From Nitrospira sp. (GTDB lineage: Bacteria; Nitrospirota; Nitrospiria; Nitrospirales; Nitrospiraceae): 59,157 nt of DNA. A program made the position numbers and the translations under genes. The notes beneath the pieces are model-generated. The model was not told the origin of the DNA, ran no database searches, and was given only the letters and a program-made list of their open reading frames with translations. The stretch covers positions 1-59,157 of the forward strand of contig VGXB01000008.1 of NCBI GenBank assembly GCA_016873515.1. Reading direction: 5' to 3'. Shown here in pieces: positions 6,692-52,545 of this stretch; position 1 is the stretch's first letter; each line of letters opens with the position of its first letter.

Positions 6692-6783
6692 TCTTTGAAT
6701 CTGGTGTATCAGTTTAACCAGTTGGTTTTTCACGAGATTATGTTCGTGTGCCCGTGCGGTTGACCGCGCCCAAGGAAGCGCCC

Positions 6784-8886
6784 ATGTATAAGACCATCTA
6801 TATCCCGGTTGATAACTCCGACCATTCCAACACCGCCGTGGACGTCGGCGTCCATATGGCCAAGATCTTGGGTTCTAAGATCGTGGGCAGCCACGTCTAT
6901 GCCGCCAAGATGCACGACAAGCGCTTCAAGCAAATGGAGGCGGGACTTCCTGAAGAGTACCACGACGAGAAGGAGCTCGACCGCCAGCGGCAGATCCACG
7001 ACTCCCTGATCACCCGCGGGTTGCAGATCATCACCGATTCCTACCTCGACTATGTCGATAAGAAGTGCACCGAGTCTAATCTGCCGCTCGAACGCCGATC
7101 GCTCGAAGGACGCAATTGGAAAGTACTCTCCGAAGACATCAACACGAACGGGTACGATCTCGTCATCATGGGCGCATTGGGTGTGGGCGCCGTGAAGGAC
7201 AGTGTTATCGGCAGCAACACGGAACGGGTGGTGCGACGGGTCCGCAACTCCGACATGCTGATCATCAAGCACACCCAGCCGATGACAAACGGCAAAATTG
7301 TTGTCGCGGTGGACGGCAGCCCTTATTCGTTTGGCGGGTTGATGACAGGCCTGCAATTGGGCAAGGCGTTGAACATGCCCGTTGAAGCCATCTCAGCGTT
7401 CGACCCTTATTTCCACTATGCCGCGTTTCACAGCATCTCCGGCGTCTTGAACGAGGAAGCGGGGAAAGTCTTCCGATTCAAGGAGCAGGAAAAACTGCAC
7501 GAAGAAATTATCGACAGTGGTCTGGCCAAAATCTATCAATCTCACCTCGACATCTCTCGGGAGCTCGCCCAGGCCGAGCAAACCGACGTAAAAACCACCT
7601 TGCTCGACGGCAAAGCGTTCGAGAAGATCATTCAATACGTGCGCAAGGACGTTCCAGCCCTGTTGATCGTTGGCCGCATCGGCGTCCACAGCGACGAGGA
7701 TATGGACATCGGCAGCAATACGGAAAATCTGCTCCGGAGTGCGCCCTGCAATGTCCTGGTCTCGAACCGCAAGTACGTGCCGCCGATCGACACCCAAGCG
7801 GAATACACGATCGCCTGGACAGAAGAAGCCTTGCGCCGGATGGAAAAAATCCCCGTCTTTGCACGCGGCGTCGCCAAGACTGCCATTCACCGGTATGCGA
7901 TTGAAAAGGGACATACGATCATCAGCAATACCGTTGTGGATACGGCGGTTGGCCATATCCTGCCTAAAGGCGCCATGGATGCGATGCGAGCTCTGGGCGG
8001 CAGCCTGGACGCAGCCGGTATCGACCGCGATAAGATGCAGGCGGACGACGCGGTGGCGAAAGAGCTCATGGGTTCGACGCTCAGCAGCATGATGACCCAG
8101 GTGGTGGAAGAAAAACCCGTGGTGTCCGAGGCGACCCAAGCCTACCTAGACCGCATGAACCAAAACTATTTTGTGTGTGACGGTTGCGGGTACATCGGCA
8201 AGGGCGAGCCTCCAGTGAAGTGCCCGGTCTGCGCGGCTGACGGTGTCAAATTCAAACAAGTTGACAAGAGTATCTTCGATGCCGCAGCCAAATCCGAAGG
8301 TGTACTGGAAACTGACCTCGCGTACGACGACGTGCCGATGCAATGGACAAAAGATGCCAAAGAAGCGATCCGGGCTGTACCTGCCGGATTCCAACGCCGC
8401 CGCGCCAAGGCGAAGATCGAAAAGAGCGCGCGCAAGCTCGGCATGACCACGATCACGTTAGAATACGCCGCCCCGATGATCAAAGAGGCGGCAGACGAAG
8501 ACTACCAACCAATCTTCGCCAACAAGGGCACTGGGACTTCCACCGACGCAGAAGCTAAACTGGCTTCCGTAAGCGAATCCATCTCCAATAGGAACATGGG
8601 GCACGAGCAGGCTCCCGTAAATAACGGCAACGGCCATACGGAATCGTCCCCCTGTACCTGGACGGCTGATGCACAGGCCAGATTGGACCGGGCACCGGAA
8701 GGATTTATGCGAGACTGCACCAAAGCGCTGATCATCAAGCACGCCGAGACGATCGGGGTGACACACATTACGCTCGAAGTCGCCAATGAAGGGATCGAAC
8801 AGGCGAAGGGATATATGGCCGATGCCATGAAAACCGGCGACCTCAAGAGCATGATCGCAAACCTGACAGGCAAGGGAAGTTCTTAA
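6784..8886 (+). CDS. Double universal-stress protein fused to PCP_red and rubredoxin-like domains
   Basis: 700-residue soluble fusion. Two UspA-like domains (about 1-165 and 170-330) each keep an ATP-binding-type glycine loop (GALGVGAVKDSVIGSNT; GRIGVHSDEDMDIGSNT). Then come a PCP_red domain (341-395, IAWTEEALRRMEKIPVFARG), a rubredoxin-like knuckle (C465-x2-C468, C480-x2-C483) and two more PCP_red domains (518-570, MQWTKDAKEAIRAVPAGF; 623-680, CTWTADAQARLDRAPEGF). PCP_red is known as the C-terminal domain of the dark protochlorophyllide reductase B subunit; its role here is unknown. ATG 6784 is chosen because it has an AAGGA SD and begins directly in the Usp fold (MYKTIYIPVD). The next gene ends in the same domain, so a shared function is likely. 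The enzymatic or sensory role is not visible. Confidence 0.85.
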   Translation: MYKTIYIPVDNSDHSNTAVDVGVHMAKILGSKIVGSHVYAAKMHDKRFKQMEAGLPEEYHDEKELDRQRQIHDSLITRGLQIITDSYLDYVDKKCTESNLPLERRSLEGRNWKVLSEDINTNGYDLVIMGALGVGAVKDSVIGSNTERVVRRVRNSDMLIIKHTQPMTNGKIVVAVDGSPYSFGGLMTGLQLGKALNMPVEAISAFDPYFHYAAFHSISGVLNEEAGKVFRFKEQEKLHEEIIDSGLAKIYQSHLDISRELAQAEQTDVKTTLLDGKAFEKIIQYVRKDVPALLIVGRIGVHSDEDMDIGSNTENLLRSAPCNVLVSNRKYVPPIDTQAEYTIAWTEEALRRMEKIPVFARGVAKTAIHRYAIEKGHTIISNTVVDTAVGHILPKGAMDAMRALGGSLDAAGIDRDKMQADDAVAKELMGSTLSSMMTQVVEEKPVVSEATQAYLDRMNQNYFVCDGCGYIGKGEPPVKCPVCAADGVKFKQVDKSIFDAAAKSEGVLETDLAYDDVPMQWTKDAKEAIRAVPAGFQRRRAKAKIEKSARKLGMTTITLEYAAPMIKEAADEDYQPIFANKGTGTSTDAEAKLASVSESISNRNMGHEQAPVNNGNGHTESSPCTWTADAQARLDRAPEGFMRDCTKALIIKHAETIGVTHITLEVANEGIEQAKGYMADAMKTGDLKSMIANLTGKGSS

Positions 8887-8924
8887 GTGCTGGGTTTTGA
8901 GTTTGACGAGCACCAGTTGCGCTC

Positions 8925-9060
8925 CGTTCTTTAACTCAGTCCTCAGCACTCAATCCTCAGCACTCAAAGACATGGGCAAATCGCTTCCCATCTTCGACTC
9001 CTCAATGTTGCCTCGGCCTGAGCACCTCTCAGTCCTCAGGACTCAGAACTCAGCACTTGT
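8925..9060 (+). repeat. CTCAGTCCTCAGCACT-type direct repeats running into a CDS
   Basis: Copies of a roughly 9-14 nt word lie on both sides of the ATG at 8972: ACTCAGTCCTCAGCACTCAA, TCCTCAGCACTCAAAGA and, after it, CTCAGTCCTCAGGACTCAGA followed by ACTCAGCACTT. The second cluster is translated as LSVLRTQNSAL in the radical SAM protein if the start is right. A similar word (CTCAGCCCTCAGTCCGCAGC) occurs near 3263. Confidence 0.6.
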
Positions 9061-10336
9061 TCACGACGGCCGAACCGTCGATGATTTCAAGCCATATCTA
9101 GTCGCGTTGAATCTGACCAAGCGCTGCAACCTGAAATGCGACCATTGCTATCTAGATGCTACGACTAAAGCGGCCGGCGGCAATGACGAACTGTCCACGA
9201 ATGAATGTTTCCGGCTCATTGACCAAATCGCTGAAGTCAATAAAGGGTGCCTCCTGGTCATCACCGGCGGCGAGCCGCTAGTCCGCCCGGATATTCTCGA
9301 CATCGCCCGCTATGCCGTGAAGCTCGGCTTCATGGTCGTCTTCGGCACCAACGGCATGCTCATCGACGACCAGATGGCCAAAACCCTGGTCGAAATCGGC
9401 GTGATGGGCGTGGGTATCAGTATCGATTCGCTCGATCCGGCCAAACACAATGCCTTCCGCGGCGTACCCGGCGCGTGGGAAGCGGCAGTCGCTGGAATCG
9501 AGGCCAGCAAACGCAACGGCCTCCAATTCCAAATTCATTTCAGCGCACAGCCGATGAACTACCAGGAACTACCGGCTATCATCGACTGGGCCCATGGGCT
9601 CGGTGCCCGTGTGCTGAATGTCTTCTTCATGGTTTGCACAGGCCGCGGCGAGGAATTAACCGACATCACTCCGGCACAATACGAAGAAGTTCTCGGTTAT
9701 CTGGTGACCTGCCAGGACAACTATCAAGGCATGCTCGTTCGGGCCCGCTGCGCCCCGCACTTCAAACGGTTGGCTTACGAAAAAGATCCCAATTCGCCGA
9801 TCACAAAGGCCACTGGATATATGGGTGGCGGGTGCCTGGCGGGAACGAATTACGCCCGTGTGACGCCCAACGGTGAACTGACCCCCTGCCCCTACATGCC
9901 CCTGTCGGCTGGAAACGTCAGGCAGGATAGCTTTGCCGATCTGTGGACTCGATCCGATATCTTCAACTCATTCCGCTACCCGCAACTCAAAGGCAAATGC
10001 GGCGATTGCGAGTACACCGACATCTGCGGAGGCTGCCGTGCTCGTCCCTATGTGGACCACGGAGACTGGTTGGACGAAGACCAGTGGTGTCTGTATACGC
10101 CTAAAGGCGGTGAGAAAATCAAAGTGGCATTCAACACGCCAGAAGAAACTGAGGTGGCCTGGGATGACGCATCGACGTTGCGCTTGAGCCGCATCCCCTA
10201 CTTCCTCCGCGCGATGGTCAAAAAAGGCGTCGAAAAACACGCCCGCGAAAACAATGTCGCGCTCATTACTGTCGAATTGATGGAAGAGCTGCGCAAGAAA
10301 CGCTTCGGCAACGAGACGCCGGTGTTCAAATTCTAA
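8972..10336 (+). CDS. Radical SAM/SPASM protein with C-terminal PCP_red domain (NirJ/AhbC-like)
   Basis: 454-residue radical SAM enzyme. The [4Fe-4S]-SAM motif is C52-x3-C56-x2-C59 in LTKRCNLKCDHCY, GGEPL follows, and a C-terminal SPASM-type cluster region has CLAG, CPYMP, CGDCEYTDICGGC and WCLY. Overall it resembles NirJ/AhbC/AhbD enzymes, which modify siroheme or coproheme side chains, and peptide-modifying SPASM enzymes; a heme-type substrate is inference. The last 60 residues are a PCP_red domain (VAWDDASTLRLSRIPYFLRA...). The start is uncertain: ATG 8972 or 9005 are possible, there is no SD, and residues 19-29 derive from a spacer repeat. Likely partner of the Usp/PCP_red gene 85 nt upstream. 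Confidence 0.85.
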   Translation: MGKSLPIFDSSMLPRPEHLSVLRTQNSALVHDGRTVDDFKPYLVALNLTKRCNLKCDHCYLDATTKAAGGNDELSTNECFRLIDQIAEVNKGCLLVITGGEPLVRPDILDIARYAVKLGFMVVFGTNGMLIDDQMAKTLVEIGVMGVGISIDSLDPAKHNAFRGVPGAWEAAVAGIEASKRNGLQFQIHFSAQPMNYQELPAIIDWAHGLGARVLNVFFMVCTGRGEELTDITPAQYEEVLGYLVTCQDNYQGMLVRARCAPHFKRLAYEKDPNSPITKATGYMGGGCLAGTNYARVTPNGELTPCPYMPLSAGNVRQDSFADLWTRSDIFNSFRYPQLKGKCGDCEYTDICGGCRARPYVDHGDWLDEDQWCLYTPKGGEKIKVAFNTPEETEVAWDDASTLRLSRIPYFLRAMVKKGVEKHARENNVALITVELMEELRKKRFGNETPVFKF

Positions 10337-10487: not shown

Positions 10488-10997
10488 GTGGATGCCCTTG
10501 ACAGCATTTCCCTCGATCTTCGCATGTTGATCCCGATCCTCAACCACTGGGTTCACCTTGTGTCGGCGGTGATCTGGATCGGCGGATTGGCCTTTCTTGT
10601 GATGGCAGTCACACCAGGACTGCAGAAGGCCGTGGCGAAGGACCAGATTAAGCCCATCACTGACGCATTCTACCAGCATTACAAGAAAGTCGCGGGCATC
10701 CTCCTCGTGGTCCTGCTGTTCACCGGCGGCATCAACGTGCACTACGTCAATCAAGTCATTACGTCACAAACTGGTGCCGGTATGCAGCACCATGCTAAGT
10801 ACCTGATCGTCTTTTGCGTCAAACTACTGCTCGTCCTTGGACTCCTCACGCTGTTTCTCTATACCGTGATCTTCAAATCCGACGACTATGCAGAAGAAGG
10901 CGAGTCGTATGAAGCCATCCCGTTCCAGCATGCCGCACTCTGGATGGGCTTCTTCATCATCCTCTGTGCCGCCGCCATGAAACACCTACACCAGTAA
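10488..10997 (+). CDS. Four-TM membrane protein (CopD/HemJ-like fold)
   Basis: About 169 residues with four hydrophobic helices: NHWVHLVSAVIWIGGLAFL, VAGILLVVLLFTGGINVHY, LIVFCVKLLLVLGLLTLFLY and AALWMGFFIILCAAAMKH. The first helix motif HxxHxxxAxxWIGG and further His and Lys residues near helices 2 and 3 resemble small heme- or copper-linked membrane families (CopD-like, HemJ-like). I cannot assign it to one. It follows the radical SAM/PCP_red gene in the same orientation, so a tetrapyrrole link is plausible but unproven. GTG 10488 is used; ATG 10524 is an alternative, which starts just before the first helix. Confidence 0.75.
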   Translation: MDALDSISLDLRMLIPILNHWVHLVSAVIWIGGLAFLVMAVTPGLQKAVAKDQIKPITDAFYQHYKKVAGILLVVLLFTGGINVHYVNQVITSQTGAGMQHHAKYLIVFCVKLLLVLGLLTLFLYTVIFKSDDYAEEGESYEAIPFQHAALWMGFFIILCAAAMKHLHQ

Positions 10998-11206
10998 ATT
11001 CGCGCCTCTCCCTCGCCTCGACTTCCGTATCGAACAAGATACTGTTCCTGGTACTTTATCCAATACAATCGAACTGCCGTACCTCCTATTCCTTCTCAAA
11101 CAGTGCTGCAATAGCCTTTTTTGTTTACGGCATAACTATGCAGCCGATGGCATAATCGTTGCTCATCTCGTGCTGTATTCGACGGGGACGATACAACCGG
11201 ATCACC

Positions 11207-11361
11207 GTGAGGCAATGTGGTGAGTCGACAACCTCCTCCAGGTGGCAAGCGACTCTGTTCCTTGCCGTCTCGTTGCTCTTCGCTTTGCCATTCAGAGCAA
11301 GGTTGTTGCCTCGCCCCTCTTGCCAACAGCGCCATGCCTCTCAGGAGCCATGGCGCTTTTT
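11207..11361 (+). ncRNA. Candidate structured non-coding RNA ending in an intrinsic terminator
   Basis: The 437-nt spacer between the 4-TM gene and the oxygenase holds three nested helices: GTGAGGCA (11207-11214) with TGCCTCGC (11307-11314, one G-U); ACAACCT (11228-11234) with AGGTTGT (11300-11306); TGGCAAGCGA (11243-11252) with TCGCTTTGCCA (11280-11290, one bulge). An intrinsic terminator follows at 11328-11361. A single rod with an asymmetric bulge followed by a terminator is what a small stable RNA looks like; 6S-like architecture is one possibility. No convincing ORF explains it. The 5' end and promoter are not defined. Confidence 0.45.
11328..11361 (+). terminator. Rho-independent terminator
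   Basis: AGCGCCATG (11328-11336) pairs perfectly with CATGGCGCT (11349-11357), followed by TTTTT. The orientation is plus strand, so it ends either the candidate ncRNA or a long 3' UTR of the 4-TM gene 330 nt upstream. Confidence 0.8.
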
Positions 11362-11434: not shown

Positions 11435-12202
11435 CTAGCGAGACGGTCTTGACCCGAGGAAAGCCCTCTTGAAGACAGTCTTAAGACCGAAGTAGCCGAT
11501 GGAGTCTTTTAAATTGGAATAGAGGCGCTTGACGAGATTCATGTGCGGGTCGGTAACATATTCCATCGTCAAGACGATCCGCTCTTCCCCTTTTCCCAGA
11601 GGCGTAACAGCATGCCACAGCTTGTCGCCATTGAAAATTACCAGGTCGCCTGGCTTAGTTACCAGTTCAAGATGGCGCGGTGGTTTGGTTGAGTGGTCCT
11701 TAAAGAGCTCACCGACCAGCTTACAGTGCGTAGACCGGTCGACTAATCCCATCAGAATCGTATAGCGGGCCCCCTTGTAGTAGGACGTATCGTAATGAAA
11801 CCCGATGTGGTCGCCCGGCTCCGTGTAGTAATAGAGCGCGCAGGAATGGGGGTCATTGTCCGGACAAAATCTCAGGTCGGCGTTTGTGAGTCGACTGAGG
11901 AATGCCTTAAACGCATCCGACCGATACAGATCGAGAAACAACGGAGCTTTTTCCTGCACCGTATAGTAACTGACACTGCCCCCTTTCTTATGGCCTGGAA
12001 TATAATTGCGATTCAGGTCCCCTTTCAGGACCTGAACCTCTGGCACAAATGTCTGTTCCACGAATACCATCGGCAGGAAGTGCGGGATGACTAGAAACTC
12101 ATTCTGCTCCCAATAATCCTTGTGCAGCTGTTCGAAATCTAATTGACGAATGGCCTGCTCAACGGCCTCCGCTACCTTGCTAGAACTAACTGCTGTCACC
12201 AT
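11435..12202 (-). CDS. 2-oxoglutarate/Fe(II)-dependent dioxygenase
   Basis: 255-residue protein of the 2OG-Fe(II) oxygenase (prolyl-4-hydroxylase-like) superfamily. The metal triad is H136-x-D138 (GDHIGFHYDT) with H197 (DKLWHAVTP), and the 2OG-binding Arg is R208 (GEERIVLTMEY). The double-stranded beta-helix core covers about 115-215. The substrate is unknown; related enzymes hydroxylate proteins or small molecules. The ATG at 12202 (MVTAVSSS) follows GGAAGGGG and is preferred over an upstream in-frame ATG. It is convergent with the ncRNA terminator and stands alone. Confidence 0.8.
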   Translation of the reverse strand: MVTAVSSSKVAEAVEQAIRQLDFEQLHKDYWEQNEFLVIPHFLPMVFVEQTFVPEVQVLKGDLNRNYIPGHKKGGSVSYYTVQEKAPLFLDLYRSDAFKAFLSRLTNADLRFCPDNDPHSCALYYYTEPGDHIGFHYDTSYYKGARYTILMGLVDRSTHCKLVGELFKDHSTKPPRHLELVTKPGDLVIFNGDKLWHAVTPLGKGEERIVLTMEYVTDPHMNLVKRLYSNLKDSIGYFGLKTVFKRAFLGSRPSR

Positions 12203-12227
12203 AACCAGCCCCTTCCACCATACTTGC

Positions 12228-12315
12228 CAAGCGTCAATCGTCACCCGTTAACCGCAGAACATTGCCCTCTTTCCTCACCGCATGATGCTTAGCATATGGT
12301 GCTTGACGTTTCACG
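12228..12315. repeat. Degenerate GCGTCAATCGTCACCCG-type spacer repeat
   Basis: AAGCGTCAATCGTCACCCG with TTAACCGC, and GCTTGACGTTTCACG, fill the short spacer between the oxygenase start and the lolA stop. Same family as the other spacer repeats. Confidence 0.35.
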
Positions 12316-20805: not shown

Positions 20806-21769
20806 TCACGGCCTGAGACAAGGGGAAAAATCCGTCCTTGATGACGATCATTTGCCCCTCTTTGCTGTAGATGAACTTGAGGAACTCTTTGATCAGGGGG
20901 TCGAGCGGCTTGTTCGGCGCCTTGTTCACATAAATGAGCAGGTGGCGCCAGAGAGGATAAGACCCATTCATCGTGTTTTCTTGAGTCACGGCCACGAACG
21001 GAGCACCGTCTTTTTCCGCCAGAGGAACCAAGCGCACCCCGGAAGTCAGATAGCCGATCCCACTGTAGCCGATCCCTGCGATATCCTCCGTGACACCTTG
21101 CACAACCGACGCAGATCCCGGCTGCTCCTTCACCTCGTCCTTAAAGTCGCCGTTCTTCAGGGCATACTCCTTGAAAAACCCATAGGTGCCGGAGGCCGAG
21201 TTACGGCCATACATACTGATGGGAGACTCCCCCACTTCCCCTGTCAACCCCAACTGCTTCCAGCGATCGAGATTTGCAGATGCCCCACCCCGGCGAGTCT
21301 TCGAGAAGATCGCATCGAGCTGGGCCATCGTCAGTCCCCGGATCGAGTTGTCCTTGTTCACATAGAGGGCGAGTGCGTCAATGGCGACAGAGAATGCAGT
21401 AGGCTTGTAGCCAAACTTTCGTTCGAAGGAGTCAGCCTCGGTACTTTTCATCGGGCGGGACATCGGCCCCAGTTGGGCAGTCCCTTCGATCAGAGCCGGA
21501 GGGGCCGTGCTCGACCCTTTGCCTTCGATTTGAATCTTGACGCTCGGATATTGTTTGCGAAACCCCTCAGCCCAGAGGGTTATCAAATTATTCAGCGTAT
21601 CTGATCCGATACTGTTCACATTGCCAGACATCCCTGTGACTTTCACATACCCTTTTACGGCGGGATCCAGCACGATCACGTTATCGGCATAAGCCGTGGG
21701 GACAGTCGAAACAAGAGCCCCCAAGAGAGCACCACCGCAGAGACTGGATGTAGTTATTGAGAATTTCAC
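20777..21769 (-). CDS. pstS: Phosphate-binding periplasmic protein PstS
   Basis: Periplasmic phosphate receptor of the Pst importer. 330 residues with a signal peptide (MKFSITTSSLCGGALLGALV, cleavage near AYADN) and phosphate-site motifs (GSDTLNNLI, MYGRNSASGTYGFFKEYAL, GYSGIGYL). The GTG at 21769 is chosen because AAGGAG lies 5 nt upstream and translation then begins exactly at the signal peptide; an ATG at 21787 would add six residues. Four 11-nt-spaced Pho-box repeats lie just upstream. Confidence 0.93.
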   Translation of the reverse strand: MKFSITTSSLCGGALLGALVSTVPTAYADNVIVLDPAVKGYVKVTGMSGNVNSIGSDTLNNLITLWAEGFRKQYPSVKIQIEGKGSSTAPPALIEGTAQLGPMSRPMKSTEADSFERKFGYKPTAFSVAIDALALYVNKDNSIRGLTMAQLDAIFSKTRRGGASANLDRWKQLGLTGEVGESPISMYGRNSASGTYGFFKEYALKNGDFKDEVKEQPGSASVVQGVTEDIAGIGYSGIGYLTSGVRLVPLAEKDGAPFVAVTQENTMNGSYPLWRHLLIYVNKAPNKPLDPLIKEFLKFIYSKEGQMIVIKDGFFPLSQAVIAKELAKLE

Positions 21770-52053: not shown

Positions 52054-52545
52054 CTACTTGTTGTCAGGTATCTGTTGATACTTGGGCGGAATAGGCAGCA
52101 CCCCCTGCCCTGGCGTGGCCGTACTGCCGCAATCCGGAGGGCAAATCTTGTCCCCTTGCCTGAGATCCAGCAGATTCGCGTCCATTTTCCTCAATTGGTA
52201 CTAGGAGACCCACCCACCGTCTTTCCTGCCACAACGGGCCGGGACAGATGAGCCACCCGATTTCCGCATGCCCTTCCAGATAAGAATCGCAAATTGCCCG
52301 CATGGTGGCTTCGAGCGGCACACATGCGACGAGTGTCGGAGCCCCCCCCTTGCAACTCTCTGCCGACTGCGTGACGCCGGTGGTTGCATACCCGTCAGGA
52401 CAGCTCCCGCAAGTCATCCGAATACTTTTGAGTTCGGTAGACTCGTCCGCCATTCCCAAAGCCGGAAAGTCCCCGCAACCAGTGAACCTCCTAGGCCGAC
52501 GATGATCACCAGCCTTCCGATATGAGCCGACGCCTGTGTGAACAT
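52054..52545 (-). pseudogene. Decayed exported cysteine-motif protein between ruvA and ruvB
   Basis: An ATG 2 nt after the ruvA stop opens MFTQASAHIGRLVIIVGLGG (signal or TM). A frame change near 52465-52475 is needed to continue into MTCGSCPDGYATTGVTQSAE...CKGGAPTLVACVP. A second change near 52250-52262 leads to SSVPARCGRKDGGWVS; a TAG at 52201-52203 interrupts, then QLRKMDANLLDLRQGDK and ICPPDCGSTATPGQG follow to the stop at 52054. Repeated C-xx-C-P-(D/E)-G-(Y/H) units imply a disulfide-rich envelope protein. Three lesions suggest real decay, though indel errors could account for two. Confidence 0.65.

Follow-up and report, generated by a model that had tools for sequence, protein, structure and literature searches.

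Several bacterial small RNAs depend on sigma54, among them GlmY/GlmZ, Qrr, CrcZ, NrsZ and Pxr. They are encoded by small, freestanding RNA genes with a -24/-12 promoter, upstream activator boxes and a terminator. Structured 5' leaders and riboswitches lie between the promoter and the first gene. A large share of global nitrite oxidation is due to Nitrospira, which also carry out complete nitrification. A literature search whose coverage left out most subscription papers and preprints returned no such regulatory RNA of Nitrospira. One published transcriptome protocol removed small RNAs (PMC6606698).

Here we analyse a spacer within a 59,157-nucleotide stretch of Nitrospira sp. DNA (contig VGXB01000008.1, assembly GCA_016873515.1), which we refer to as the window. 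The spacer is likely to encode a small structured RNA of ~188 nt that stands alone and represents a new family of sigma54-dependent regulatory RNAs. Like the known sigma54-dependent small RNAs, it combines a -24/-12 promoter, activator boxes, a freestanding gene and a terminator; it appears to resemble them in its working, and by model match it belongs to none of them. It differs from them in lacking an Rfam match, in having its own Y-shaped fold with a UGCCC loop, and in being found in one bacterial family only. Family members elsewhere, in contrast to those systems, form the leader of RHH/REC genes or lie behind a small membrane-protein gene. The likeness to structured leaders and riboswitches holds for clades A and B, where the RNA sits between the promoter and the first gene (the letters W for window type, A, B and R for REC type were coined in this analysis). 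In the window, by contrast, no same-strand gene follows the RNA, and a terminator and a convergent gene are found instead. The parts of the unit and its two neighbours are as follows.

10488-10997, plus strand: CopD-like gene (cop), the upstream neighbour; weak Pfam match under the cut-off
11027-11042, no strand assigned: UAS1, enhancer-like palindrome GTATC-N6-GATAC, centred at about -140 relative to the predicted start; identity 94-100% in the three relatives
11051-11066, no strand assigned: UAS2, enhancer-like site GTACT-N6-AATAC, its centre 24 bp from that of UAS1, at about -116; 69-81% identical in three relatives
11148-11163, plus strand: putative sigma54 -24/-12 promoter TGGCATAATCGTTGCT (GG-N10-GC), 88% identical in three relatives; predicted start at ~11174
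11174-11361, plus strand: predicted transcript of ~188 nt, its ends placed from promoter geometry and terminator
11204-11359, plus strand: conserved RNA core with closing stem P1, arms P2 and P3 and terminal hairpin; match to model R2 at 32.3 bits, covariation
11244-11266, plus strand: arm P2, GGCAAG/CUUGCC, from the consensus with relative G005
11273-11300, plus strand: arm P3, UUGCUCU/AGAGCAA, with UUGCC in its loop, from alignments and a loop survey
11328-11361, plus strand: terminal hairpin followed by UUUUU, predicted intrinsic terminator, from the fold; 86-91% identical in relatives
11435-12244, minus strand: 2OG-Fe(II) oxygenase-like gene, the convergent downstream neighbour

Further upstream lie genes for a universal-stress/PCP_red protein with a rubredoxin-like domain (6748-8886) and, next to it, for a radical SAM/SPASM protein that also has a PCP_red domain (8897-10336).

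An earlier sequence-only reading had proposed an undescribed structured RNA at 11207-11361, built from nested helices and a strong terminator. These elements are present on the plus strand: the segment folds at -69.3 kcal/mol, compared with -47.8 +/- 3.8 for shuffled sequences (z -5.61), and a GC hairpin followed by UUUUU closes its 3' end. None of 200 shuffles folded as well, in keeping with the expectation that such helices would rarely arise by chance. The minus strand folds more weakly (z -4.2), and the longer segment 11174-11362 gives z -4.07. Three helices are indeed nested, and their lengths do not exactly reproduce the 8, 7 and 10 bp first given; we find GGCAA/UUGCC, GGUGAG/CUCGCC and CGACAACCU/AGGUUGUUG. 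The consensus with relatives is a Y comprising the closing stem, two arms and then the terminator, rather than a single rod. The interval itself captures the core of the unit; its start falls inside the probable transcript, which would begin at ~11174. A simple terminator scan missed the intrinsic terminator, whose hairpin has an internal mismatch.

A DNA search of 58 other genomes found one relative, G005, at 81% identity, and a two-sequence model then added G063 and G071 at the same genomic place. Across this clade of four, the core is 81-82% identical to that of the window in all three relatives, while identity in the two spacers that flank it drops to 42-45% for G005 and G063. G071 is the nearest relative; its spacers are 85-86% and its core 81% identical, so that this pair shows no footprint. 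Boxes, promoter, core and U-rich terminator are all retained in the window clade. Between the window and G005, 56/56 consensus pairs are kept, eight of them with a one-sided change. The window copy is the most diverged of the clade: it scores 32.3 bits with R2, a model of 19 sequences with none from the window clade, compared with 56-60 bits for the three relatives, and its loop reads UUGCCA. With the clade A model (R3) it reaches 12.3 bits (E 0.24), compared with E values of 6.6e-6 to 4e-4 for the relatives. Because it is diverged and resides in a small genome (1.98 Mb), the window copy may be on its way to loss.

The cop spacer of other species contains a sigma54 site 144-221 nt past the cop stop codon and a structured RNA with a UGCCC hairpin loop. 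When 20 sequences of three clades are aligned, two-sided changes affect 17 of the 32 consensus pairs; 94.0% of cells pair, as against 83.0% after shuffling (0/500) and 39-52% after sliding. Two-sided changes occur in 74 cells, compared with 23 in shuffled and 5-32 in slid controls. A second clade, with 19 sequences, has 45 pairs, 13 of them with two-sided changes. The compensatory changes whose absence among homologues had been named as grounds for abandoning the RNA are thus present and do not refute it, and the fold is confirmed as real and better than chance. An ordinary terminator between convergent genes combined with chance folding would fit the convergent setting and the terminator-like hairpin at the end of the spacer. 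The covariation already refutes this explanation, and the conserved promoter and enhancer and the copies elsewhere in genomes oppose it as well; we give it practically no weight. The loop pattern was matched in 107 of 114 distinct copies. The seven exceptions comprise four window-type copies (UUGCC) and three weak paralogues, and UUGCC in the P3 loop of the window appears, from the alignments, to be a diverged form of the family loop UGCCC.

Could a small protein be the conserved entity, with the palindromes as coding sequence? One frame of the segment (...G-x-CPS...) stays open in clades B and R, and in clade R this frame is fused to the REC reading frame. Against this, the clade A frame is broken by single-base indels, and two-sided pair changes exceed all controls. 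Across the window clade, no reading frame keeps its start, stop and sequence, and we reject the coding reading there; overall it is highly improbable.

A search with all 4227 models of Rfam 15 gave no match at E<=10 in the window and none at E<=1 in 10 relatives. The sequence-only reading had raised a 6S-like RNA, and the window RNA does resemble 6S RNA in its length, near 188 nt, and its long closing stem. The scan for 6S that had been suggested, however, produced no RF00013 match at E<=10 in the window or in the window genome, the fold is a Y without the large central bubble, and the window RNA has a predicted sigma54 promoter. Separate 6S-like loci also occur in relatives. A 6S RNA or a 6S-like polymerase decoy can consequently be set aside with near certainty. 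Elsewhere, RF00013 matches at E<=10 were found in 31 of 59 genomes searched, one of them above the cut-off. Relatives L003-L012 each have a partial match at ~1501-1575 (41.8-46.8 bits, one over the cut-off), and most of the six such loci looked at share the closing stem GUGGGAGGAG/CUCCUCCCAC. These loci probably encode the genuine 6S RNA of Nitrospira, which the Rfam model barely detects; no locus of this type was found in the window genome. An undescribed structured RNA, as originally proposed, is what covariation, phylogenetic footprint, promoter, distribution and the lack of an Rfam match together point to.

Besides the promoter TGGCATAATCGTTGCT, the 59 kb window has no TGGC-N7-TTGCW; 1.18 such matches are expected over the whole length and both strands. 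A promoter scan found no sigma70-type promoter. As in sigma54-dependent small RNAs, the -24/-12 element contains GG-N10-GC, and the boxes at -140 and -116 lie within the ~-80 to -150 characteristic of activator boxes. Among 11 GTATC-N6-GATAC sites in the genome, only UAS1 is followed by a good sigma54 site (11/13) at a distance of 30-260 nt; the other UAS-type sites include one weak case (9/13, at L171). Further GTATC...GATAC palindromes at 21597-21612 and 52068-52081 have no sigma54 site at the right distance.

The window genome (G000) encodes four sigma54 activators; two further proteins with weak PF00158 matches appear to be AAA proteins of other kinds. An attempt to link the boxes to a single activator left all four as candidates, and the box search gave no second unit of box and sigma54 site in the window genome. 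Of 79 genomes of the genus, 76 have the sigma54 core-binding domain, among them the window genome, where it lies at the very end of a contig (G000 C62:6-575). A search of the window genome for the sigma54 DNA-binding domain was negative, for which the truncation of the gene at the contig end is the most likely reason. Hfq, which an Hfq-dependent small RNA would call for, was not found in the draft genome: PF17209 has no match there at E<=1. One contig (C60) carries two sigma54 activators and, at L177, a gene that we take to encode ammonia monooxygenase subunit C; the window genome, only 1.98 Mb in size, therefore probably belongs to a comammox Nitrospira.

Model R2 has a single match at E<=0.1 in the window genome (11204-11359, E 1.5e-4). 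Within the order, this threshold yields matches in 96 of 235 genomes (7 of 37 genera); across the phylum, E<=0.01 yields 65 of 395 genomes (6 of 169 genera). Every matching genome belongs to family f1. The RNA thus appears, as far as searched, to be restricted to a single family of nitrifiers, Nitrospira and its neighbouring genera. N. moscoviensis (L080) is among the named members and has two copies (G060 C1:459062-459223 and 2725648-2725806), one of them away from the first site. The promoter association was evaluated in the 65 copies that the order-wide R2 search added to the first set: in 62, a sigma54 site scoring >=10/13 lies no more than 300 nt upstream, compared with 4 of 65 in the control, the reverse complement of the downstream stretch, and 3.65 in shuffles. 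At least one box occurs in 87 of 115 distinct upstream regions (21.8 when shuffled) and at least two in 69 (2.0 when shuffled), a count that leaves out L093, L131, L124 and duplicate or short upstream regions; the window UAS2, at 7/10, is below the threshold for the two-box count. All 67 distinct cop-locus regions have a UAS upstream, as do almost no copies of genus g24.

Gene order was compared at 99 cop loci. Promoter, RNA and an RHH-like gene occur in that order in 34, ten of which also have REC, and promoter, RNA and REC occur in 17. The RNA is missing from 15 loci with promoter and REC and from two with promoter, RHH and REC. The four loci of the window clade have promoter and RNA only, with no RHH/REC gene. 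One locus has the promoter alone, one has RNA and RHH with the promoter not found, and 25 have neither promoter nor RNA (one with REC), including some that are merely cut contigs (L019, L020, L037, L079). In a protein tree rooted at the midpoint only, from which the partial protein L097 was excluded, the window clade stands beside loci that lost everything. What is common to the three large branches is promoter plus RNA rather than one gene set. The RHH-like label of ORF-A is a reading of its sequence; it had no Pfam match at E<=0.01. One genome has two cop loci 12 kb apart, both with a sigma54 site (L102 and L103, G069 contig C124).

The RNA heads an RHH/REC operon in most relatives and stands alone in the window and in genus g24. 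It might then be a cis-acting leader, a 5' untranslated region controlling the operon, with the window copy as a remnant after operon loss. The gene order of the 34 loci, the closeness with which ORF-A follows the RNA and the divergence of the window copy within its clade are consistent with this. However, four window-type species keep promoter, boxes, structure and U-rich terminator without an RHH/REC gene, and the g24 RNA has its own sigma54 promoter, with a second box pair, and mostly a second sigma54 site too, after the RNA. We consider this explanation unlikely for the window copy, and a cis role in the RHH/REC operons of other relatives is likely in addition. That leader arrangement and the 15 loci that keep promoter and REC gene without the RNA weigh against the freestanding reading, as do the divergence of the window copy, the lack of a footprint in the pair with G071, the missing upstream UAS of most g24 copies and the negative searches for Hfq and the sigma54 DNA-binding domain.

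For the freestanding RNA, comparison among genomes shows promoter, boxes, structure, terminator and distribution, as well as independence from any one neighbouring gene. Expression, activator identity and mode of action we infer as follows. One of the four sigma54 activators of the genome would bind the two GTATC...GATAC-like boxes and drive sigma54 polymerase at the -24/-12 promoter. The transcript would fold into the Y with its terminator hairpin and act through base pairing of the conserved UGCCC loop or through protein binding. Action in trans is the most likely mode, favoured because the window clade keeps the RNA by itself, without the genes that it leads in other relatives, and g24 has it as a separate unit. 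Such an on-switch, if correctly predicted, would offer a direct handle: one promoter, one activator box set and two copies in the cultivable N. moscoviensis.

In g24, the RNA copies follow a gene that reads as porin-like. A box pair lies just downstream of the RNA in seven of eight g24 loci looked at; five of these seven have a second sigma54 site after the pair, and six have a small hydrophobic ORF listed. The eighth locus (L148) ends 25 nt past the RNA. Promoter and RNA are separated by a small membrane-protein-like ORF in L143, L144, L149, L154, L155 and L156. We tentatively suggest that the Y-shaped RNA is a portable module of nitrifiers, used as a freestanding small RNA, as an RHH/REC leader and behind small membrane-protein genes, which, under one activator with GTATC...GATAC boxes, would form the post-transcriptional arm of one sigma54 regulon. 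A wider sigma54 regulon that includes small single-membrane-span ORFs is possible. Such single-span ORFs are located 3' of the RNA in L151, L189, L160, L150, L162 and L149, and 5' of it in L143, L144, L154, L155 and L156; several are under their own sigma54 site and GTATC...GATAC boxes.
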